Shown: one piece after another, positions 3,152 to 14,320 of the stretch
Numbering within the stretch: the stretch's first letter is position 1
How the letters are laid out: every line of letters begins with the position of its first letter
Source of the DNA: Haladaptatus sp. QDMS2
GTDB lineage: Archaea > Halobacteriota > Halobacteria > Halobacteriales > Halococcaceae
Length of the DNA stretch: 64,000 nt
Direction of reading: 5' to 3'
Assembly: GCF_029338295.1 (NCBI RefSeq)
Contig: NZ_CP119792.1
Span: 248,001-312,000, forward strand
Notes under the pieces: model-generated
The model's database searches: none
Told to the model about the DNA's origin: nothing
The model's input: only the letters and a program-made list of their open reading frames with translations
Program-made: the position numbers and the translations under genes

Positions 3152-4414
3152 TCAGGCGAGGTCGAACAGTTCCTGCCCCGGAGCCAGATGCGGTTCGATG
3201 GCGTCGGGGTCGAGTTCGATACCGAGGCCCGGTTTTTCGGGCACTTCGATGACGCCGTCTTCGATGAGCGGGCCGCCAGTGTGCATGTCGTCCCACCACT
3301 CGACCTCACGGGCGTGCCATTCGAGTGCGAAGGCATTTGGAACCGTCGCGCAGGTGTGGACGCTCGCGATGGTCCCGACCGGACTCGAGATGTTGTGTGG
3401 GGCGACCGGAATGTCGAAGGCGTCTGCGAGCGTCGCAATTTTCCGGAATTCGAGCAGGCCGCCACACTTCTGGATGTCCGGGGCGATGATGTCCACCGCC
3501 TGTTCGGTGACGAACGGGACGAACCCTTCGACGCGAGTGAGGTTCTCGCCGGCGAGAATTGGTGTCTGCGTCCCGTCGGTGACCTTCAGATGGGCGTCCA
3601 CGTTCTCCGGTGGAACCGGGTCTTCGATCCAGTCGAGGTCGAACGGTTCGACGCCGCGTGCGATTTTCACCGCCGTCTCCGTCGAGAAGTTCCAGTGTAG
3701 GTCGAATCCGAGCGTCGGGTCGGTGCCAATCTCCTCGCGCACGGCCTCCACAATGTCGATTTTGTGCTGGATGGCGTCGTTCGAGAGTCGTCGAGTTGCC
3801 GTGTCTGCATCCTCGATTTTCACGTCGAGGTCGAACTTGAGCGCGTCGAAGCCCTCGTCTACGACCTCGCGGGCGACGCTGGCGTACGACTCGGGCGAGT
3901 AGATTTCCCGGGGGTCTGCGTCCGTCGCCTCCGCGAGATTCTCACCCGCGTGGCAGTCTGCGTAAATCTCCACCTCGTCGCGGTACTTTCCGCCGAGCAA
4001 CTGGTACACCGGGAGCCCGGTGACCTTGCCAGCGATGTCCCAGAGGGCGATTTCGATGCCGCTCACCGCCGCCTGTGAGTAGCCGAGCGACCCGCCGAGT
4101 CCCGAGACGAGCTGGGTCATGTGTTCGACGAGTCGGTCTACGTCGAGTGGATTTTGCCCGACCAGCCCGGGTTTGAGAAACTCGACGTACTCGCCTGCCG
4201 GACCGGGAAACGCCTCCCCGATGCCGTACACGTCCGAATCGGTTTCGACCTTGATGAGGTTCCACGGGAAGTTCCCCTCGACCACGACACACTCGATACC
4301 CGTGATTTGCACGTCTCGTTCGGCAGCGCGTCGCTGGCCCGACTCGCGGAGGTCGCGCCACCCCTGCCCGCCGGTCATATCTGCCACTAACTGTCGGTAC
4401 TTCGACTGTTGCAT
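3152..4414 (-). CDS. Enolase-superfamily sugar-acid dehydratase (gluconate/xylonate dehydratase-like)
   Basis: A 420-residue member of the mandelate racemase/muconate lactonizing group. These enzymes abstract the alpha proton of a sugar acid and eliminate water to give a 2-keto-3-deoxy acid. Visible active-site features are the Lys of ALKFDLDVK, metal ligands in GFDLHWNF, WIEDPVPPEN and ILAGENL, and the His of VAPHNISSPVGT. The substrate-capping N-terminal domain (NFPWNLIKVET...GIGEAFPGP) and the LLGGKYRDEVEIYADCH segment resemble haloarchaeal xylonate/gluconate dehydratases as I recall them. The exact substrate is an inference. It ends one base from the convergent iron alcohol dehydrogenase gene. 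Confidence 0.88.
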   Translation of the reverse strand: MQQSKYRQLVADMTGGQGWRDLRESGQRRAAERDVQITGIECVVVEGNFPWNLIKVETDSDVYGIGEAFPGPAGEYVEFLKPGLVGQNPLDVDRLVEHMTQLVSGLGGSLGYSQAAVSGIEIALWDIAGKVTGLPVYQLLGGKYRDEVEIYADCHAGENLAEATDADPREIYSPESYASVAREVVDEGFDALKFDLDVKIEDADTATRRLSNDAIQHKIDIVEAVREEIGTDPTLGFDLHWNFSTETAVKIARGVEPFDLDWIEDPVPPENVDAHLKVTDGTQTPILAGENLTRVEGFVPFVTEQAVDIIAPDIQKCGGLLEFRKIATLADAFDIPVAPHNISSPVGTIASVHTCATVPNAFALEWHAREVEWWDDMHTGGPLIEDGVIEVPEKPGLGIELDPDAIEPHLAPGQELFDLA

Positions 4415-4479: not shown

Positions 4480-6180
4480 TTAGTCCCGTTCCGGGCGTGG
4501 GGTGTACGTCTCCAAATCGACGTTCGGATACAGGACGGCGTCGAGCGTGACCAACTCCTCTGCCACGGTGTTCGCCGTTTCGATTGCCTGTGAGAACACC
4601 CGACGAGGCTCGACGATACCGTCGGCCCACGCATCGGTCGTCGTACCGTCCGCCGCGAGGCCGACCGATGCGGGCTGGGTTTCTGCGGTCGAGTGGGCGA
4701 CGCGGAGCGCGGCCAGCGCGTCGATGGGGTCTGCCCCCGCGTTCTCCGCGAGCGCGACGGGCACCTGTTCCAGCGCCTCCGCGAACGCTTCGACGGCGAG
4801 TTGCTCGACGTCGGGGATGGTCGGCGCGTACTCGCGCAATTCCTGCGCCACCGCCATCGCTGGTGCGCCCGCACCGGGAAGCACCTGTGCGTCCATCACC
4901 GCAAGCGCCGTCACTTCGAGGGCGTCCGCCAGTACGCGTTCGTGCTGGGTACGGGCCGTCTCCGTCTCCACGTCCACGACGAGCGTGAAGACGCCACCGT
5001 CACACCCCTCGAAGAAGGTCCACTTCTCGTCGCCAACCCGGCGTTCAGTTACCTGTGGGACGGTCCCGAGCCGGTCCGGCGTGAGGTCCGTGAGGTCGCC
5101 GACGACGGTTGCGTCGCATGCCCGCGCGAGACGGTACACGTCGGAGAGCGGGTACTCGACTTCGTCCACGACGGCGACGCCGTGTCGATCGAGGGCGGTG
5201 CGAATCCGGTCGTCGACCGCCGGCTGGGAGACGAGCACGTCCACACCGAGGCTGGCAACCTGCGCGGCGACGCCGTCGAGATGCGCGTCGAGTTCCTGCG
5301 TGTACGTCTCCAACTGTTCGAGCGTCTCGACAGTGACTCCCGACTCCTTCCCCTCCCCGAAGGTGGCGCCGGTTCGCTCGAAGTCGATTTCTCGGTCGAT
5401 GAGCGCCACCGTCGCATCCTCGACGGGGTCGAGCAGCGACCAGTCGAACTCGGTCTTCGCCCGGTCTGACTCGTGGAGTGGGCCAGGGAACCGCCGGACG
5501 ATGAGTCCCTCGTAGAAACCACCCTCACCGGGGGGCGCACTGAGCAGTTTCACGTCGTCCGTGTCCAACCACTCGCCGTCCGTCGCCCGAGAGAGCGCCT
5601 GCACCGCTTCTACCACCCGACTCGCGTACGTCTCGCGTGTTTCCGCGTCGAGGTCGCTCGTCATCGACGTCGCGGCGACCTGTCGAAGGCGGGCTGTGTT
5701 TTCGACCGTGACCTCGCGGGCCAGTTCGTCGAGCACCTCGCCGGCGCGGGCGGCGGCCATGGCATACCCGATGACGACGTTCCCGGGGTGGAGTCCCTCC
5801 TCAATGCGGTCGAGACCGTTGTCCACGAGCGCCGCGGTGAGCACGATGGCCGTCGTCGACCCGTCTGCGAGCCCCGTCTGCATCGAATCGATGGCATCGA
5901 CGAACAATGCGGCGACGGGATGGTTGAACCCCTCGCCGCGTTCGACGGCGTCGAGAATCTGACTCGCGTCTGCGGTCTGGACCGTCTCGGGTTCGTCCTG
6001 GAGATTCTTCGTGCGAATCTGTTTTTCCATGCCGAGCGGGCCGAGTGTCGAGCGAACGAGCGATTCGACCCCCCTCGTCGCTAACTGGACGTATCTGCGC
6101 GCCTCCTCGTCGCGAATCGTCCACTCGCCACTTTCGACGGCGGCATACCCGATCTCGTCGCGTCCGCGTTCCATGGCCAC
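4480..6180 (-). CDS. Divergent thermosome-like chaperonin (Cpn60/TCP-1, group II paralog)
   Basis: A 566-residue protein that aligns by eye over the whole group II chaperonin fold but is strongly divergent. Recognisable pieces are STLGPLGMEK near residue 44 (usual TLGPKGMDK), ADASQIL (usual NDGVTIL), ADGSTTAIVLTAALV (usual GDGTTTAVVLAGEL), QVLPGAGAPAMAVAQELREY and ENAGADPIDALAALR. The catalytic Asp residues in the GDGTT and NDG motifs are kept, but the first Gly, the Asn and an RGGT motif in the intermediate region are lost. The Gly-Met-rich tail of haloarchaeal thermosomes is absent. It is monocistronic among metabolic genes. Either a specialised folding ring component or a non-canonical paralog is possible. 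An ATG two codons downstream is an alternative start. Confidence 0.85.
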   Translation of the reverse strand: MAMERGRDEIGYAAVESGEWTIRDEEARRYVQLATRGVESLVRSTLGPLGMEKQIRTKNLQDEPETVQTADASQILDAVERGEGFNHPVAALFVDAIDSMQTGLADGSTTAIVLTAALVDNGLDRIEEGLHPGNVVIGYAMAAARAGEVLDELAREVTVENTARLRQVAATSMTSDLDAETRETYASRVVEAVQALSRATDGEWLDTDDVKLLSAPPGEGGFYEGLIVRRFPGPLHESDRAKTEFDWSLLDPVEDATVALIDREIDFERTGATFGEGKESGVTVETLEQLETYTQELDAHLDGVAAQVASLGVDVLVSQPAVDDRIRTALDRHGVAVVDEVEYPLSDVYRLARACDATVVGDLTDLTPDRLGTVPQVTERRVGDEKWTFFEGCDGGVFTLVVDVETETARTQHERVLADALEVTALAVMDAQVLPGAGAPAMAVAQELREYAPTIPDVEQLAVEAFAEALEQVPVALAENAGADPIDALAALRVAHSTAETQPASVGLAADGTTTDAWADGIVEPRRVFSQAIETANTVAEELVTLDAVLYPNVDLETYTPRPERD

Positions 6181-6273: not shown

Positions 6274-7071
6274 TCAGTCCTCTGCGGGGAGTTCGGCGTC
6301 ACGGGTGTCGAGCGCCGAATCGAAGGCATCCTTCATCGCCTGCCCGCCTTGCAGGAGGTAGCGGGTGTCCGTTCCGACGATGAGCCAGTCGAAGCCGAGT
6401 TCCATCCACCGGTCTACGTCTTCTTCACTGACGGCCAACGACCCGACGGGGACATCTTCGTCCCCGGCAACCGAAAGGACGTGATTCATCGCGTCGAGCA
6501 CCTTCTGGTCGCCCCACTGACCGACCACACCGAGCGACGCAGAGAGGTCGGATGGACCAACGAAGAGCGCGTCTACGCCCTCGACGGCGGCGATTTCCGC
6601 GGCGTTCTCGACGGCTTTCTTCGTCTCGATCTGGATGATGGTGACCAGTTCGTCGTTCGCCTTCGAGACGTACTCGTCGAACTTTGTGCCGTACGCCGAG
6701 GCGCGTCCCCCGGCGAGTCCACGAATCCCCTCCGGTGGGTAGCGCATCGCCTCGACGGCGGCGCGAGCCTCCTCCGCTGTCTCGACCATCGGGACCATGA
6801 CGCCCGCCACGCCGATATCGAGGACGCGCTTTATCTCGACCGGGTCGTTCCACGGAACCCTGACGATGGCCGCGGGCGAACTGCCGTAATCGACCGACCG
6901 GACGAGATTCTCCACTGTCTCTAAGCTGTTGGACGTGTGCTCGATGTCGATGACGACGAAGTCGAAGTCGATGAGGCCGTTTATCTCTGCGACCTTCGGG
7001 TGCCCAATCGAGAGCCAGTTGGCGACGAGGTTCTCACCGCTCCGGAGCGCTGCCGCGAACTCTGTATCCAT
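6274..7071 (-). CDS. HpcH/HpaI-family aldolase (class II, pyruvate aldolase type)
   Basis: A 265-residue TIM-barrel aldolase of the HpcH/HpaI group (2-dehydro-3-deoxyglucarate aldolase relatives), which cleaves 2-keto-3-deoxy acids into pyruvate and an aldehyde with a divalent metal. Visible features are FVVIDIEHTSNS near residue 38, IVRVPWNDP, metal-binding Glu in IIQIETKKAVEN, and GPSDLSASLG carrying the metal Asp. The length is normal. It is divergent from the kinase-enolase cassette starting at 7214, with about 140 bp between them that could hold shared control signals. In context it is a candidate last step for the dehydratases in this island; the substrate is not shown by the sequence. 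Confidence 0.88.
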   Translation of the reverse strand: MDTEFAAALRSGENLVANWLSIGHPKVAEINGLIDFDFVVIDIEHTSNSLETVENLVRSVDYGSSPAAIVRVPWNDPVEIKRVLDIGVAGVMVPMVETAEEARAAVEAMRYPPEGIRGLAGGRASAYGTKFDEYVSKANDELVTIIQIETKKAVENAAEIAAVEGVDALFVGPSDLSASLGVVGQWGDQKVLDAMNHVLSVAGDEDVPVGSLAVSEEDVDRWMELGFDWLIVGTDTRYLLQGGQAMKDAFDSALDTRDAELPAED

Positions 7072-7213
7072 GAGGTCACCGACTCACTGGATGACTATGA
7101 TACTTTCTCTTGGTAACACGGACCAAGCCGGTCACCTCGTACAGTAAAGTAATCGGGGTTCGATAGCTAGCACTGACCACACATGCGAACAGAACGAGGC
7201 TCCCACCGGACCG

Positions 7214-8251
7214 ATGGCTGAAGACCACCCTTCGAGCGAGCGAACGACGCTTTCCCCGGAGACGGCGGTGGCGTACCTGCGACGACACGACGTGCTCACT
7301 GACGGCGAAGACGCGACGGCAGAATCGCTCGGCGGCGGCGTCTCGAACGCCGTCGTCAAGGTCGAAGCAGGGGATGAGGCCTACGTCCTGAAACAACCCC
7401 ATCCAAACCTCGCGGTGGAGGACGACTGGCCCGCAGATGTCTCTCGGGTGCACAACGAGGCGGCCGCCGCTCGCGCCTACGACTCGATTCTCGCCGACGG
7501 TACAGTCGCTGGCCTTCGCGTCCCGGGAGTCGCCACAGAGAGTCACGACGACCACATCATCGTCATCGACTGCGCCCCCGACGGGGCGACGATGTGGAAA
7601 ACCGACCTGCTCGCAGGGACGGTGGACGCGAGCGTCGCGCACCGCCTCGGTCAGTTTCTCGGAACGGCCCACCGCGTCGCTGCGGGCCGACCAGACATCC
7701 GCGAACGGTTCGCGGATAAGACGCCGTTCGACCAGTTACGGGTGGACCCCTACCACCGGACGACGGCGAAGCACCATCCAGAACTCGAAGCGCCGATTCT
7801 GGCGGAGGCAGAACGCGTCCTCGCCGCAGACCGGACGCTCGTCCACGGCGACTTCAGTCCGAAAAACGTCCTCGTCAACCCGGGTACGGACGCGCTCTGG
7901 GTCCTCGATTTCGAAGTAGCCCACTGGGGTGACCCCGCCTTCGACACCGGATTCATGCTCAACCACCTCTGTATCAAGGCCGTCCACGTCGCCTCCCACC
8001 GTGAGGAGTTTCTCGACGCCGCACTCGCCTTCTGGGAGGCCTACACCGACGCGGCGGGGTGGGACGTGGAACGCGACACGACAGCGGAACTCGCGGTGCT
8101 CATGCTCGCCCGGGTGGACGGGAAGTCACCGGTCGAGTACACGGACGTGGAGACGGAGGCCACCCTCCGGCGTATCGCCACGCGGGCGTTACGTGAACCG
8201 GTAGAGCGCGTCCCGGCATTCGTCGAACTCGTCCGGGAGGAAGCGCGATGA
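7214..8251 (+). CDS. APH-fold small-molecule kinase (phosphotransferase family)
   Basis: A 345-residue kinase of the aminoglycoside phosphotransferase/methylthioribose kinase/choline kinase fold. The N-lobe has a Gly-rich loop SLGGGVSNAVVKV near residue 38 and the ATP Lys in AYVLKQPHP. The catalytic loop is LVHGDFSPKNVLVNPG near residue 214, followed by the metal motif WVLDFEVAHWGDPAFDTGFML. These match MtnK-type sugar kinases better than antibiotic kinases. Its TGA overlaps the ATG of the enolase paralog (ATGA), so the two proteins are made together. It most likely phosphorylates a hydroxyl of a sugar or hydroxy acid that the enolase-like enzyme then uses. That link is inferred from the overlap. 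Confidence 0.82.
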   Translation: MAEDHPSSERTTLSPETAVAYLRRHDVLTDGEDATAESLGGGVSNAVVKVEAGDEAYVLKQPHPNLAVEDDWPADVSRVHNEAAAARAYDSILADGTVAGLRVPGVATESHDDHIIVIDCAPDGATMWKTDLLAGTVDASVAHRLGQFLGTAHRVAAGRPDIRERFADKTPFDQLRVDPYHRTTAKHHPELEAPILAEAERVLAADRTLVHGDFSPKNVLVNPGTDALWVLDFEVAHWGDPAFDTGFMLNHLCIKAVHVASHREEFLDAALAFWEAYTDAAGWDVERDTTAELAVLMLARVDGKSPVEYTDVETEATLRRIATRALREPVERVPAFVELVREEAR

Positions 8252-9507
8252 TTACCGACGTAGACGCGTGGGAAGTGCTCGACTCGCGAGGAAACCCGAC
8301 CGTGCGCGTCGCCGCCCACACGGCGTCAGAACGCGGCGTGTTCACGGTTCCGTCCGGAGCGAGCACGGGGGCGCACGAGGTGCTCGAACGCAGAGATGGT
8401 GAGGGACGGTACGACGGGAGGGGCGTCCGTGAGGCGGTTCGCGCCGTCCGGCAGGAACTCGCACCGGAACTGGTCGGCGCAGACCCGACCGACCAACGTG
8501 CAATCGACGCGAGAATCGAGGACTGCGACGGGACGGACAATCTCTCGCGACTCGGCGGCAACGCCGTTCTCGGCGTCTCTGGTGCGATTGTACACCTCGC
8601 GAGCAACGTCCGCGACGAACCGCTGTACGAAACCCTCGCAACAGAGACTCCGGGACGACTCCCCCGCCCCATGGTGAACATCCTTAGCGGCGGCCTCCAC
8701 GCCCGGGGCGGCGTTGAGATTCAAGACTTCCTCGTCGTGCCCCGCGGAGCGACCACCTACCGGGAAGCACTCGAAACCGCATGGGCGGTCAGAGACGCCG
8801 TCCGTGCACGAATCGAGGCAGACGGCCACCGCCCGCTCGTCGCCGACGAAGGTGGGTACGCACCGCCACTCGACCGCATCGACGACGCCTTCGACCTGCT
8901 CGAACGCAGCGTTCGCGACGCCGGATTCGAACCACACCGAGACGACGTGGCATTCGCCGTCGACGTCGCCGCGAGCCACTTCTACGACGCCGAGAGCGAA
9001 ACCTACGAACTGTCGAGTGTGGGGCGAACGCTCGACCGCGACGAACTGACCGACCTCGTCGCCTCGTGGGCTGACCGCTACCCGCTCGTTTCCGTCGAGG
9101 ACCCGCTGGCGGAGGACGACTGGGCCGGGTGGCAGCGCCTCGCAACCCGCCTTGACGGGGTGCAGCTGCTCGGCGACGACCTGCTCGTCACCGACGCGGC
9201 GCGAATCGAGCGGGCTATCGAGACTGGAGCGGCGAACGCGGTTTTGGTAAAACCGAATCAAGCCGGAACCATCACCCGTGCCCGCGAGGCTGTGGCCACG
9301 GCCCGAGACGTCGGCCTCGCGACGGTCGTTTCGGCGCGGTCTGGCGAGACGAGCGACACCACCATCGCTGACCTGGCAGTCGGTCTCGACGCCGGCCAGA
9401 TAAAAATCGGCTCGCTCGCCCGGTCAGAGCGGCTCGCGAAGTACAATCGCCTGCTCGAAATCGACCGAGAACTGGACACGGGGCTGGCCGCAGATCCCAT
9501 CCTCTGA
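8248..9507 (+). CDS. Enolase paralog (phosphopyruvate hydratase-like) with altered active site
   Basis: A 419-residue enolase-fold protein covering the full enolase length. Kept residues (yeast numbering, by-eye alignment) are the Ser39 loop VPSGASTGAHE, His159 in SGGLHA, Glu211 in DEGGYAP, Asp246 in AVDVAAS, Glu295 in VEDPLAEDD, Asp320 in LGDDLL, Lys345 in LVKPNQAGT, Arg374/Ser375 in ARSGET and Lys396 in QIKIGS. Two highly conserved positions differ: Glu168 is Asp (IQDFL instead of IQEF) and His373 is Ala (SARSGET instead of SHRSGET). The C-terminus (RSERLAKYN) is bacterial-like, unlike the ERTAKLN form I recall for haloarchaeal housekeeping enolase. It is coupled to the upstream kinase by a 4-bp overlap. 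I think it acts on a different 2-phospho acid. Confidence 0.85.
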   Translation: MITDVDAWEVLDSRGNPTVRVAAHTASERGVFTVPSGASTGAHEVLERRDGEGRYDGRGVREAVRAVRQELAPELVGADPTDQRAIDARIEDCDGTDNLSRLGGNAVLGVSGAIVHLASNVRDEPLYETLATETPGRLPRPMVNILSGGLHARGGVEIQDFLVVPRGATTYREALETAWAVRDAVRARIEADGHRPLVADEGGYAPPLDRIDDAFDLLERSVRDAGFEPHRDDVAFAVDVAASHFYDAESETYELSSVGRTLDRDELTDLVASWADRYPLVSVEDPLAEDDWAGWQRLATRLDGVQLLGDDLLVTDAARIERAIETGAANAVLVKPNQAGTITRAREAVATARDVGLATVVSARSGETSDTTIADLAVGLDAGQIKIGSLARSERLAKYNRLLEIDRELDTGLAADPIL

Positions 9508-9545
9508 AAATTGCATCGGAGGTCGCACGCCACACCAGCCCCGAC

Positions 9546-9552
9546 ATTTATC
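9546..9552 (+). promoter_or_regulatory. TATA-like element for the cupin gene
   Basis: ATTTATC lies about 27 nt before the ATG at 9576. It suggests the cupin gene has its own promoter even though it follows the enolase paralog by only 68 bp. Confidence 0.45.
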
Positions 9553-9575
9553 ACCTCCCTCTCGCATGTGAAGGT

Positions 9576-9950
9576 ATGACAGGCGACTACTCGATGACGC
9601 TCGTAGCCGACGTAGAACCGAAGCCTTCCGCGAGTTCCGGGACCGACCACGTCGATCTGGTCAGCGAACTCGGTTGCACGGAGATGCGACCGAAGGTGTG
9701 GTACCTCTCGCCGGGGGACGCGATGAGCTATCACCGGCAGACAGAACAGGAGGAGTTCTACTACGTTCTCTCCGGGCCGGGCCGGATGAAAATCGAAGAC
9801 GAACTCCACGACGTGCCCGAGGGGACGGCCGTTCGCATTCCGCCGGAGACGCGCCGCCAGGTGTTGAACGACACCGAGGGCGAACACGTCTGGCTCATCG
9901 TCGGCGCACCACCGGCTCTGGACGACGGCAGACCAGCCAACGACGAATAA
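9576..9950 (+). CDS. Small cupin-domain protein
   Basis: A 124-residue single-domain cupin. The first cupin motif is degenerate: YHRQTEQEEFYYVLSGPGRM, with one His and the two Glu of the E-x(3)-Y type. The second motif is VPEGTAVRIPPETRRQVLN, where the usual metal His is replaced by Arg. Such proteins are often sugar-phosphate isomerase-like or ligand-sensing proteins. It directly follows the kinase and enolase paralog on the same strand and may belong to the same pathway; this is inferred from position. It converges on the KARI-like gene 15 bp downstream. The function is unknown. Confidence 0.8.
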   Translation: MTGDYSMTLVADVEPKPSASSGTDHVDLVSELGCTEMRPKVWYLSPGDAMSYHRQTEQEEFYYVLSGPGRMKIEDELHDVPEGTAVRIPPETRRQVLNDTEGEHVWLIVGAPPALDDGRPANDE

Positions 9951-9965
9951 GCCGGGTGGCCTCGG

Positions 9966-10982
9966 TTAGTCCTCGTCGTGGTCGAACAGTTTCTCGATGG
10001 TTCGCTGTTCGGCCTGGACGAAGTCGGAGTTGCGCTGTTTCTTGTAGAGGCGTTTGAGCCCCGGATGGTCGAGTGACTGCTCTGCGCTCCATTCGCGTAC
10101 GAACGACCCGTTGTCGATGTTCCGGAGTTGCTCCTCGGTGAACTCCTTGAGCGGTTCGACGTACTCAGCGACGAACTCGTCGGCCCGCGAGAGTTGACCG
10201 TACTGGCTCGTCGGTGAGTGGTACGGCAACTGTCCGAGGAACCCTTCTGCGGCCATCAACTCGAAGATTTCCGCGAGTTCGGTCGAGAGGTAGAGTTCGG
10301 ACATGATGATCTCCTCGGGGATGCCGTGGGCGCGCTCGACTTCGAACTTCGCCTGGAACGCGCCCATCATCATCGGCACGAGCGCCTGCTCTGAGAGCAA
10401 GTCCACCTTCGTTTCCATGTCGAAGGTGCCCTCGACGACGCCCGCCTGCGTCGAACCGATACCCTTCGCGAGCGCCAGCGCGATAGCCGTCGCCTCGCCG
10501 GAGGCGTCCTGTTCGACCGCCATGATGCTCGGGAAACTCTTGCCCGCCTCGTACAGGGTGCGCACAGACGGGCCGGCCATCCGCGGTGCGACCAGCACCA
10601 CGTCCACCGTCTCCGGTGGTTGGATAAGGTCGAAGGTGATGTTGTAGCCGTGAGAGAAGTAGAGAACGTCACCCTCCTCCAGATTCGGATGGATGTGTTC
10701 GTCGTACACCGCTGGCGCGACTTCGTCGGGGATGAGCAGGCACACGATGTCGCCCGCGGCCGCCGCTTCGGGAATGCTGAGGGATTCGAATCCATCCTCT
10801 TCGACGGTTTCTCGGTAATCGTCAGACCGATTGCCGACGACCACTTCGACACCGGAATCGCGCAGGTTGAGCGCCTGCGAACGCCCCTGGTTGCCATAGC
10901 CGATTATCGCCACCGCCCGCTCGTCGAGAGTCGATAGCGTCGCGTCTGCATCGTGGTAAATCGTCGTCTCTGTAGCTGCCAT
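9966..10982 (-). CDS. Ketol-acid reductoisomerase paralog (IlvC-like) with altered catalytic motif
   Basis: A 338-residue protein with the class I ketol-acid reductoisomerase layout. There is an N-terminal Rossmann domain with AIIGYGNQGRSQALNLRDSG near residue 28, then the all-helical KARI domain with ETKVDLLSEQALV. In true KARI the segment APKGPGH carries a catalytic His; here it reads APRMAGPSVR, so the Lys is Arg and the His is Pro. The first metal pair (Asp and Glu of DLLSEQ) is kept. The second pair (usual E-C-L-H-E) reads as SELYLSTEL, so one Glu is out of register. It may be an NAD(P)-dependent hydroxy-acid or keto-acid enzyme rather than a branched-chain amino-acid enzyme. Automatic annotation would probably name it ilvC, which I avoid here. 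Confidence 0.78.
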   Translation of the reverse strand: MAATETTIYHDADATLSTLDERAVAIIGYGNQGRSQALNLRDSGVEVVVGNRSDDYRETVEEDGFESLSIPEAAAAGDIVCLLIPDEVAPAVYDEHIHPNLEEGDVLYFSHGYNITFDLIQPPETVDVVLVAPRMAGPSVRTLYEAGKSFPSIMAVEQDASGEATAIALALAKGIGSTQAGVVEGTFDMETKVDLLSEQALVPMMMGAFQAKFEVERAHGIPEEIIMSELYLSTELAEIFELMAAEGFLGQLPYHSPTSQYGQLSRADEFVAEYVEPLKEFTEEQLRNIDNGSFVREWSAEQSLDHPGLKRLYKKQRNSDFVQAEQRTIEKLFDHDED

Positions 10983-12149: not shown

Positions 12150-12288
12150 GGATAAGGTGCGCGACGAAGCTTGTTAAATGTTCGCACAGGACACAGATTC
12201 CGCTGCTTCATTCGAATACCCGGCGTGTGAATCGGAAGGATTCGACTGGTCGGAAAGAGCTATGGTCCTCGTCTCAGCAACGTAGAGT

Positions 12289-13065
12289 ATGTCTGAAACA
12301 TACACGCACACGCCGGTCTCCGTCCGAGACAAGACGGCAGTCGTCATCGGCGGAACGAGCGGTATCGGACGGGGCATCGCACTTGGATACGCCGCAGAGG
12401 GCGCGAACGTCGTGGCGACGAGTCGTACCCAGGAGAAAGTAGAACGCGTCGCTGGGGAGATTCGCGACCAGGGGGCGAAGACGCTCGAAGTCACCTGCGA
12501 CGTGAGTGACCGGGAATCGCTCGAAACTCTCTACGACGCCGTCGAGGACGAGTTCGGCGGCGCAGACATTCTCGTGAACTCCCCGAGCGCCATCGCCCGG
12601 AAGTCCGTGCTCGACGTTTCGGAGGAGGAATGGGCACACGTCCTCGACATCCAGCTGAACGGCGTCTACCGCGCCTCGCAGGTGTTCGCCCGACGAATGG
12701 ACGCCGGAAATATCATCAACATCGCGTCGCTCTCCTCGGTGGTTACCATCAAAGACCTCATCGCCTACTCGACGGCGAAGGGCGGCATCGACTCGTTCAC
12801 CAAAGCAGCGGCGAAGGAACTCGCGCCGGACATCCGGGTCAACGCCATCCGCCCGGGGTTCATCGAGACGCCACAGACTGCAGACGCCTACCACGAAGGC
12901 TCAGAGCGGTACCGCGAGGTGACAGAGCGGGCGGTCATCCCGCGCATCGGGCAGCCCGAAGACCTCGTCGGGGCCGCCATCTATCTCGCGAGCGACGCGG
13001 CGGGCTACACGACCGGCGAAATCGTCACTATCGACGGTGGGTTCACGGCAAGCGCGTTCGAATAA
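12289..13065 (+). CDS. SDR-family dehydrogenase/reductase
   Basis: A 258-residue classical short-chain dehydrogenase. The cofactor motif is VIGGTSGIGRGIALG near residue 18 and the catalytic Tyr and Lys are in AYSTAKGG, preceded by a Ser in NIASLSS. The Asn-rich NNAG motif is altered to VNSPSA. Members with this architecture oxidise sugar lactols or hydroxy acids with NAD(P). It pairs with the divergent MLE-type gene and converges with a small cupin gene. The likely role is oxidation of a sugar or sugar acid; the substrate is unknown. Confidence 0.87.
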   Translation: MSETYTHTPVSVRDKTAVVIGGTSGIGRGIALGYAAEGANVVATSRTQEKVERVAGEIRDQGAKTLEVTCDVSDRESLETLYDAVEDEFGGADILVNSPSAIARKSVLDVSEEEWAHVLDIQLNGVYRASQVFARRMDAGNIINIASLSSVVTIKDLIAYSTAKGGIDSFTKAAAKELAPDIRVNAIRPGFIETPQTADAYHEGSERYREVTERAVIPRIGQPEDLVGAAIYLASDAAGYTTGEIVTIDGGFTASAFE

Positions 13066-13069
13066 GTCG

Positions 13070-13075
13070 AAAAAA
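13070..13075 (-). terminator. Oligo-T terminator after the second cupin gene
   Basis: Six A on the plus strand give six T on the minus strand, eight bases beyond the stop codon of the minus-strand cupin gene, in the 18-bp gap between two convergent genes. Confidence 0.4.
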
Positions 13076-13083
13076 GCGGGCTC

Positions 13084-13425
13084 CTATTCGCTCGCCCACG
13101 GCGGGTTCAGCCGCGGTGGGCTGAATATTTCCACGCCGACAGCCGGTTCGTCGCCGCGGTTCTCCGCCGCGTGGACCACGTCGCCGGGAATGGCGAACGA
13201 GTCGCCCGCTTCGAGGGTGTACTCGGTGTCGTCGATGATAAAGGTGAGTTGGCCCTGTTGGAGGAAACCCGCCTGTTCGTGTTCGTGACTGTGGTCGTCC
13301 ACGTACGCGCCGGGGTCGATGGTGAAGTGCTGGACGCTCATCCGGTCGCCTGCCGCCAGTTGCGCCAGGTGCACGCCGTCGATTACTTCCGGTGCGTCGC
13401 AGTCGCTTCGTGAGACTACGTCCAT
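13084..13425 (-). CDS. Cupin-domain protein
   Basis: A 113-residue single cupin. Motif 1 is YVDDHSHEHEQAGFLQQGQL, with three His and one Glu in metal-binding positions. Motif 2 is LEAGDSFAIPGDVVHAAEN, with the fourth ligand His. Metal binding is therefore likely, unlike the first cupin of this window. Such proteins are isomerases, dioxygenase-like enzymes or sensors in sugar-acid pathways (KdgF-like proteins, which linearise unsaturated uronates, share this size and motif, but identity is not shown). I chose the ATG at 13425; GTG codons at 13434 and 13440 are alternatives. Confidence 0.82.
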   Translation of the reverse strand: MDVVSRSDCDAPEVIDGVHLAQLAAGDRMSVQHFTIDPGAYVDDHSHEHEQAGFLQQGQLTFIIDDTEYTLEAGDSFAIPGDVVHAAENRGDEPAVGVEIFSPPRLNPPWASE

Positions 13426-13505
13426 ATGTGACACACTCACGCACCCCTCCTAAAGCTTACCCGAAATCGAGCGGTTTCGCGCCGGAAGACTGCCCCATGG
13501 CAAGG

Positions 13506-13513
13506 GACTATTA
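13506..13513 (+). promoter_or_regulatory. TATA-like element for the SDR at 13541
   Basis: GACTATTA lies about 30 nt upstream of the ATG at 13541, consistent with a leaderless archaeal promoter. Confidence 0.45.
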
Positions 13514-13540
13514 CCCCGGAGTGAGAGCACAAACCTAGAC

Positions 13541-14320
13541 ATGAGCGGTCAATTCGACGGCCAGACAGCAATAGTCACGGGTTCGAGCAAAGGTATCGGC
13601 AAGGCAATCGCGATGAAGTTCGCAGCAGAGGGCGCAAACGTCGTGACGAACTCTCGGTCGTACGAGCGAGCAGCTGAAACGTCGGAGGAGATCGAGGCGG
13701 CGGGCGGCACGGCACTCCCAGTCGAGACGGACGTGTCGGACCCCGATTCCGTCGCCGCACTCGTTGACGCGACGGTAGAGCGGTTCGGTCGGCTCGACGT
13801 GATGGTGAACAACGCGGGGATGACCATCATCGGCCCAGCAGAGGAAATGGACCCGGCCGACTGGCAGAAGGTCATCGACGTGGACCTCTCGGGGGTCTTC
13901 TACGGGTCGCAGGCGGCGGGTCGCCAACTCATCGAACAGGGCGACGGCGGGGCCATCGTCAACGTCTCCAGCATGATGGGTTCGATGGGGCTCGACCGCC
14001 GAACACCCTACTGTGCGGCGAAGGGCGGCGTCGACAACATGACGCGAACGCTCGCCGTCGAATGGGCAGAACACGACATCCACGTGAACGCCCTCGCACC
14101 CGGGTACATCCGGACGGCCATCACCGACCAGTCCCAGGCATCCGCGGGCTACACGGACCAGGACATCCAGAACCGGACGCCACTCGGGCGGTACGGGTCG
14201 ACCGAGGAGATGGCCAACTGCGTGCTGTTTCTCGCCGCCCAGAACAACTTCGTGACCGGCGAGGTGCTCACCGCAGACGGTGGCTGGTCGGCCTACGCCT
14301 GGGGGAGTGAAGGGAAGTAA
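13541..14320 (+). CDS. SDR-family dehydrogenase (glucose/sugar dehydrogenase-like)
   Basis: A 259-residue classical SDR with VTGSSKGIGKAIAM near residue 12, the NNAG motif in VNNAGMT, the Ser of VNVSSMMG and the catalytic PYCAAKGG. It ends with NFVTGEVLTADGGWSAY, the usual SDR C-terminal signature. The pattern is close to glucose 1-dehydrogenase-like and gluconate 5-dehydrogenase-like SDRs, so a sugar oxidation role is likely. It is followed on the same strand by two enolase-superfamily genes, which would dehydrate the resulting acid. This order (dehydrogenase, dehydratase, dehydratase) supports a sugar-acid pathway. Confidence 0.87.
   Translation: MSGQFDGQTAIVTGSSKGIGKAIAMKFAAEGANVVTNSRSYERAAETSEEIEAAGGTALPVETDVSDPDSVAALVDATVERFGRLDVMVNNAGMTIIGPAEEMDPADWQKVIDVDLSGVFYGSQAAGRQLIEQGDGGAIVNVSSMMGSMGLDRRTPYCAAKGGVDNMTRTLAVEWAEHDIHVNALAPGYIRTAITDQSQASAGYTDQDIQNRTPLGRYGSTEEMANCVLFLAAQNNFVTGEVLTADGGWSAYAWGSEGK

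Follow-up and report, generated by a model that had tools for sequence, protein, structure and literature searches.

The question raised by this locus is what chemistry is performed by a kinase and an enolase-like protein whose genes lie together in the haloarchaeon Haladaptatus sp. QDMS2. The genes were found in a stretch of 64,000 nucleotides (RefSeq assembly GCF_029338295.1, contig NZ_CP119792.1, positions 248,001 to 312,000), referred to here as the window, and coordinates are those of the window unless a locus or contig is named. The features concerned are the following:

7214..8251, + strand: APH-fold small-molecule kinase of an uncharacterised subfamily, 345 aa (PF01636, E 4e-19); proposed 2-hydroxyacid C2-kinase
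8248..9507, + strand: enolase paralog, 419 aa (PF00113/PF03952, TIGR01060); proposed 2-phosphoacid dehydratase
8248..8251, + strand: ATGA overlap of the kinase stop and the enolase start, read directly from the sequence

A first-pass annotation, made from the sequence alone, had described the kinase as fused by overlap to the enolase paralog within the span 7214-9950. The shared ATGA at 8248-8251 is present as described and the gene coordinates are right; the word fused is too strong, however, as these are two separate genes sharing 4 nt, and the end at 9950 takes in a separate cupin gene (9576-9950).

In our judgement there is an even chance that the pair is a two-step catabolic module, in which a 2,3-dihydroxy acid would be phosphorylated at C2 and then dehydrated to an enol phosphate. 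The pair looks like an undescribed route for activating and dehydrating a sugar-type acid. Glycolytic enolase is usually regarded as functionally invariant, and public records label members of the clade described below phosphopyruvate hydratase, i.e. ordinary glycolytic enolase. If the clade uses another 2-phospho acid, a pathway is mislabelled in many genomes; the enolase active site would have a natural, repeatable and directly testable specificity switch (positions 168, 373 and 397), and a function would be available for a kinase subfamily now labelled aminoglycoside phosphotransferase.

Active-site substitutions and phylogeny of the enolase paralog

The paralog scored 465 bits against TIGR01060, above the cutoff of 300. 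It matched the Pfam domains Enolase_N and Enolase_C strongly, MR_MLE_C weakly and MR_MLE_N not at all, and so differs from the sugar-acid dehydratases of the MR subgroup, which have the MR_MLE_N/MR_MLE_C pair. The AlphaFold model (mean pLDDT 89.7) gave TM scores of 0.93-0.97 to enolases, and identity to solved enolases was 39-46%. Residues were numbered as in yeast enolase, and the alignment bore out the earlier residue assignments: Ser39, His159, Glu211, Asp246, Glu295, Asp320, Lys345, Arg374, Ser375 and Lys396 are kept, while Glu168 is replaced by Asp and His373 by Ala. Two further changes, Asn155 to Ser and Thr397 to Ile, were also present.

Asp168 and Ala373 occurred together in 61 of 61 distinct enolases of the clade, which was partly selected by these residues themselves, and in none of ~40 other archaeal and bacterial enolases. 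The latter, second copies from the same genomes included, had Glu168 and, except for a few with Glu373, His373. Full-length enolases found by their position beside the kinase all carried Asp168/Ala373, with the exception of a remote Enterobacter pair (Gly373). Position 397 in the clade was Ile or Val (once Pro) and position 155 Ser or Gly (once Asn). The metal ligands, Lys345, Lys396, Arg374 and Ser375 were kept throughout, in sequences that are otherwise highly divergent. The paralog therefore resembles glycolytic enolase (EC 4.2.1.11; SFLD enolase subgroup) in its full-length fold, its metal ligands, the Ser39 loop, His159, Glu211, Lys345, Lys396, Arg374 and Ser375. It differs in the Asp168/Ala373 of every member, in the residues mostly found at 397 and 155, in forming a separate clade, in its linkage to a kinase and in accompanying another enolase in the complete genomes examined.

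A maximum-likelihood tree was built from 61 clade members and 25 other enolases after removal of columns 155, 168, 373 and 397, by a quick search with a single support measure (SH-aLRT). One branch (SH-aLRT 99) split the 25 other or housekeeping enolases from the 61, so that the paralog falls in a clade of its own even without the signature columns; the long-branched Enterobacter relative alone was placed apart. The haloarchaeal members formed one clade (support 100) inside an otherwise bacterial group, which suggests that the paralog was transferred from bacteria to haloarchaea, and it is in this sense that the protein can be called bacterial-looking.

The Enterobacter relative belongs to a distant pair on plasmids (L091 and L093, 6208-8933), where the enolase-like gene, encoding Lys211, Gly373 and Ala347, lies opposite the kinase. 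At L091 this pair is near aminotransferase, U32 and M14 peptidase and MFS genes, and it perhaps represents a biosynthetic use of related chemistry.

The partner kinase

Methylthioribose (MTR) kinase was the best named family for the kinase, with a TIGR01767 score of 57 bits against a cutoff of 275. The AlphaFold model (mean pLDDT 93) had MTR kinases as its best PDB matches (TM 0.74-0.83), and the top seven Foldseek matches were all MTR kinases. The kinase is like MtnK (TIGR01767) in this closest fold, in a similar DDWP/ESWP loop and in the HGD motif, but unlike it in identity (16-18%), in its score below the cutoff and in its neighbours, which are an enolase and sugar-acid genes. A role in methionine salvage was disfavoured by the low score and by these neighbours. 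The subfamily is marked by the motifs HGDxSPKN, DFEVAHxGDPAFD and LARVDGKSPVEY, and an identical protein is encoded on a plasmid of Haladaptatus sp. YSMS36.

The branched Entner-Doudoroff pathway includes ATP-dependent phosphorylation of a 2-hydroxy acid, glycerate, followed by enolase, and three mutually unrelated classes of glycerate kinase have been described (PMC2063504). The chemistry proposed here would be analogous, but the kinase showed no homology to glycerate kinase classes I-III; in Pfam, TIGRFAM and Foldseek comparisons its only matches were of the APH/MTR-kinase type.

Conservation of the pair and presence of other enolases

The kinase-enolase pair was conserved in relatives and present across phyla. 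An enolase gene lay within 150 bp on the same strand for 54 of 74 distinct kinases, almost always downstream of the kinase, and within the same locus for a further 11 (65 of 74). The other nine kinases, some of which sit on short contigs or loci, had no enolase in the stretch covered; some of them may have other functions or reflect losses. A haloarchaeal genome (G243) had no enolase beside the kinase but carried an Asp168/Ala373 enolase 26 kb away. At L202 (G764) all that remains of the paralog beside the kinase is a 143-residue match, which makes this pair look truncated or in decay.

These loci come from Halobacteria, Acidobacteria, Actinomycetota, Bacillota, Rhodothermales, Bacteroidota, Atribacteria and Proteobacteria. 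Related kinases were detected in 8 of 293 genomes of the order to which the window belongs, 11/151 of the family of a Pedobacter locus, 11/249 of the class of a Conexibacter locus, 8/154 of the class of a Bacillota locus and 7/114 of the order of a Rhodothermaceae locus; they were also present at loci of Acidobacteria, Actinomycetota, Bacillota, Bacteroidota and Atribacteria and on plasmids of Proteobacteria and Rhodococcus. Kinase and enolase distances over 52 loci were correlated (r 0.78; best of 5000 permutations 0.13), with nearest neighbours in agreement in only 26 of the 52. Chance pairing, or an oddity of a single lineage, was rejected on the adjacency counts and the distance correlation.

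The Haladaptatus sp. QDMS2 genome has three enolase-family genes, located in the window, at C1:801031 and at C2:95030. The first-pass annotation asked whether the genome has a normal enolase, and one was found at C1:801031, where His159, Glu168 and His373 are intact and the following gene, read by eye, resembles ribosomal protein S2; this enolase was taken as the housekeeping gene. At least one further enolase was present in 11 of 12 whole genomes with the pair, the remaining one being an incomplete assembly with a truncated contig.

The product of the gene at C2:95030 (L002/L041) is another enolase paralog, which has Leu159, Glu373 and Glu155; a MOFRL glycerate-2-kinase-like gene follows directly. 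The same pairing occurs at L122, L197 and L198, giving four haloarchaeal genomes in total. Each of the four has the APH-kinase pair as well, and the MOFRL association is a second, unrelated kinase-enolase pairing.

Gene contexts of related pairs

Contexts designated type A (Roseibium, Paracoccus, Sinorhizobium, Rhizobium RCAM05350, Embleya, L167 and L170) contain a fumarylacetoacetate hydrolase (FAH)-type hydrolase, mostly with a short-chain dehydrogenase/reductase (SDR) and transporters; L085 and L170 also have an SMP-30 lactonase. The operon in Roseibium and Paracoccus consists of kinase, enolase, FAH hydrolase and SDR genes plus a sugar ABC transporter, and no dehydratase was seen in these operons (L076, L086), as judged from annotation and not from an exhaustive search. 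The Roseibium FAH best matched, among solved proteins, L-2,4-diketo-3-deoxyrhamnonate hydrolase (8gsr), and the SDR best matched L-2-keto-3-deoxyfuconate (L-KDF) 4-dehydrogenase (8xwk/8y11) and its mammalian homologue. In the non-phosphorylating breakdown of fucose and rhamnose, the final two reactions are those of such a 4-dehydrogenase and diketo hydrolase (PMC11199699).

Compared with the non-phosphorylating L-fucose/L-rhamnose pathway (FucA-FucB-FucC-FucF-FucG), Roseibium, Paracoccus and Sinorhizobium share a FucF-like SDR and a FucG-like FAH, and L085 and L170 a lactonase; the Roseibium, Paracoccus and L170 operons differ from it in being without a FucC-type dehydratase and having the kinase and paralog instead. 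L170, of Thermoleophilia type, is a compact island of sugar ABC transporter, SDR, FAH, SMP-30 lactonase, enolase and kinase genes, beyond which lie a transposase and a chemoreceptor gene. No other dehydratase was recognised there in Pfam scans of chosen ORFs, which did not amount to an exhaustive search. For the L170 FAH, too, the best match is L-2,4-diketo-3-deoxyrhamnonate hydrolase, but the SDR there is matched by other SDRs. Clusters that hold a diketo hydrolase, an SDR and sometimes a lactonase, and no dehydratase, point to acids of the aldonate type.

Type B contexts (Rhizobium, Paraburkholderia, Cupriavidus, Rhodococcus and Sphingobium) draw on genes for a 2-hydroxyacid dehydrogenase, an HpaD-like dioxygenase, a cupin, a zinc dehydrogenase and an FAH. 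Dehydrogenases of the hydroxypyruvate-reductase/phosphoglycerate dehydrogenase (PGDH) type adjoin the pair in Rhizobium, Rhodococcus and Sphingobium, and phosphoenolpyruvate (PEP) carboxylase is present in three Rhizobium clusters. The 2-hydroxyacid dehydrogenase and SDR steps in these related loci are putative, being assigned from homologues. Beside the pair in Sphingobium (L075:10656-13400) a 914-aa 'hypothetical' protein is a very divergent homologue of PEP carboxylase.

Other contexts comprise a sodium-solute symporter with a TIM-barrel protein in Sphingobacteria, an RraA-like protein, and GFO/IDH/MocA with PfkB and ROK. UPF0261 and a PF09370 'PEP hydrolase-like' gene directly precede the pair at L181:5745-7862, with a relative at L182:1644-2534, and this linkage could help to assign these uncharacterised families.

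The proposed reaction and its alternatives

In yeast enolase His373 contacts the C3-hydroxyl end of the pocket. The enolase of M. tuberculosis uses Glu204 (equivalent to Glu211) to remove the C3 hydroxyl, and Glu163 (equivalent to Glu168) is an active-site residue (PMC10619443). Retention of the residues for proton abstraction and Mg binding, together with alteration of 168 and 373, suggests that the paralog dehydrates a 2-phospho acid differing at its C3 end from D-2-phosphoglycerate; as both of these positions lie at the C3-hydroxyl end of the known pocket, the acid is likely to be bulkier at C3 than glycerate, most likely of the aldonate type. The kinase would act on a carboxylic acid with hydroxyls at C2 and C3, transferring phosphate from ATP to the one at C2. 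The paralog, using the Mg ligands, Lys345 as base and Lys396, would then abstract the C2 proton and expel the C3 hydroxyl, leaving an enol phosphate. The pair would thereby take the place of a sugar-acid dehydratase. The product might then be dephosphorylated to a 2-keto-3-deoxy acid, conceivably by pyruvate kinase or by a PEP-handling enzyme encoded nearby; the PEP carboxylase genes of Rhizobium and Sphingobium and the PF09370 gene of L181 count in favour of the proposal.

The order of steps put forward in the first-pass annotation, from kinase to 2-phospho acid to enol phosphate, appears from the sequences to be the best reading of the data; its suggestion that the acid is other than glycerate is the likelier reading, with glycerate as the next candidate. 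We know of no non-glycolytic catabolic function described for the enolase subgroup. No described kinase-enolase sugar-acid pathway was found in the open-access literature searched, nor any structural paper on His373 or Glu168, and a search for PEP carboxylase acting on substituted PEP analogues yielded nothing usable. Somewhat short of an even chance is the broader proposal that ATP-assisted sugar-acid dehydration is widespread, with an MTR-kinase-like C2 kinase and a neofunctionalised enolase producing C3-substituted PEP analogues that would feed 2-keto-3-deoxy-acid pathways.

Several observations weigh against dehydration of a sugar-type acid. The gene contexts vary among phyla, which a small substrate common to all of them, for instance glycerate, would explain just as well; the cluster in the window has several dehydratase-like genes of the mandelate racemase/enolase (MR/ENO) superfamily, and the Sinorhizobium gene set (L085) includes a distant UxuA-like gene, so that a dehydratase is not always missing. 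No conserved dedicated phosphatase for a substituted enol phosphate was found among the neighbourhoods, a neighbouring PEP carboxylase is simplest to explain if the product is PEP itself, and the residue roles are carried over by analogy from glycolytic enolases. The kinase might instead make the matching 2-phosphoglycerate and the paralog, tuned to it, yield PEP. Such a route would salvage glycerate released by enzymes acting earlier, for example the L-glycerate formed when an FAH cleaves a 2,4-diketo-3-deoxy-L-hexonate. Glycerate and PEP are suggested by the wide range of unrelated contexts in which the two genes recur, as would be expected if the intermediate were small and shared, and by the PEP carboxylase of the Rhizobium clusters; the hydroxypyruvate-reductase/PGDH-type dehydrogenases beside the pair favour the same substrate. 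L-KDF 4-dehydrogenase also accepts L-2-keto-3-deoxygalactonate (L-KDGal) (PMC11199699); cleavage downstream of L-KDGal would yield L-glycerate, and in that case almost all of the route would be present at Sinorhizobium L085. The second enolase paralog of the same genome, moreover, adjoins a glycerate-2-kinase-like gene. We nevertheless consider glycerate salvage rather unlikely: D-2-phosphoglycerate needs no special enolase and these genomes already have one, the conserved Lys345 base argues for the same hand at C2, and the operons at L076, L086 and L170 would be left without a dehydratase step.

The changes at Asp168 and Ala373 affect residues around the leaving group, and the Enterobacter plasmid relative, in a seemingly biosynthetic cluster, has lost even Glu211 (Lys). 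The paralog could accordingly act on a 2-phospho acid by eliminating a group that is not hydroxide, or serve as a binding or regulatory subunit of the kinase; this appears improbable, as the remaining catalytic residues do not vary even among highly divergent sequences, which argues that enolase-type catalysis is retained. Least credible, and very improbable in our view, is the reading that the paralog is simply a further glycolytic enolase whose substitutions are harmless and which stands beside a resistance-type kinase by chance. The TIGR01060 score and the public annotation would agree with it, but the substitutions are fixed throughout a separate clade, a normal enolase is co-present and the pairing is conserved across phyla; ordinary glycolytic identity is thus disfavoured by the residue tables and the tree.

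Surroundings of the pair in the window

The genes and intervals around the pair are the following:

3152..4414, - strand: mandelate racemase/enolase-superfamily sugar-acid dehydratase-like gene, context (PF13378/PF02746)
6274..7071, - strand: HpcH/HpaI aldolase (PF03328); not conserved with the kinase-enolase pair
7072..7213, no strand: intergenic region separating the divergently oriented HpcH/HpaI aldolase and kinase genes, from ORF coordinates
9576..9950, + strand: small cupin, 3' of the enolase paralog (PF07883); a neighbour in some haloarchaea only
9966..10982, - strand: ketol-acid reductoisomerase (KARI) homologue, context and not part of the module (PF07991/PF01450)

MR/ENO dehydratase-like, SDR, KARI and chaperonin-like genes form a cluster around the pair both in the window and in Halomarina. 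Cupin homologues adjoin the pair in Halomarina L072 (81%) and in L014/L035 (72%), the KARI homologue has a 77% relative in Halomarina L072, and the dehydratase-like gene at 3152..4414 has a 74% relative near the pair in L039.

The HpcH/HpaI aldolase, whose best PDB match was 1dxe and whose nearest solved relative is 2-dehydro-3-deoxygalactarate aldolase, had been put forward as a possible further step. This found no support: the gene is absent at that position in the closest relative, Halomarina L072, and beside the pair in nearly all other loci, and it was rejected as a conserved step. A KARI-based apionate pathway was set aside, KARI accompanying the pair only in Haladaptatus and Halomarina among the loci compared.

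Two further observations concern the flanks of the pair. A protein of 685-690 aa without a Pfam match flanks it in Rhodothermales (L022, at 7914-9986 and 12261-14318; L021; L023; L033), in two copies at some of these loci. The sugar-acid cluster by the pair also includes a divergent TCP-1/thermosome paralog, at 4480-6180 in the window, and two are present in Halomarina (L072:4513-7860).

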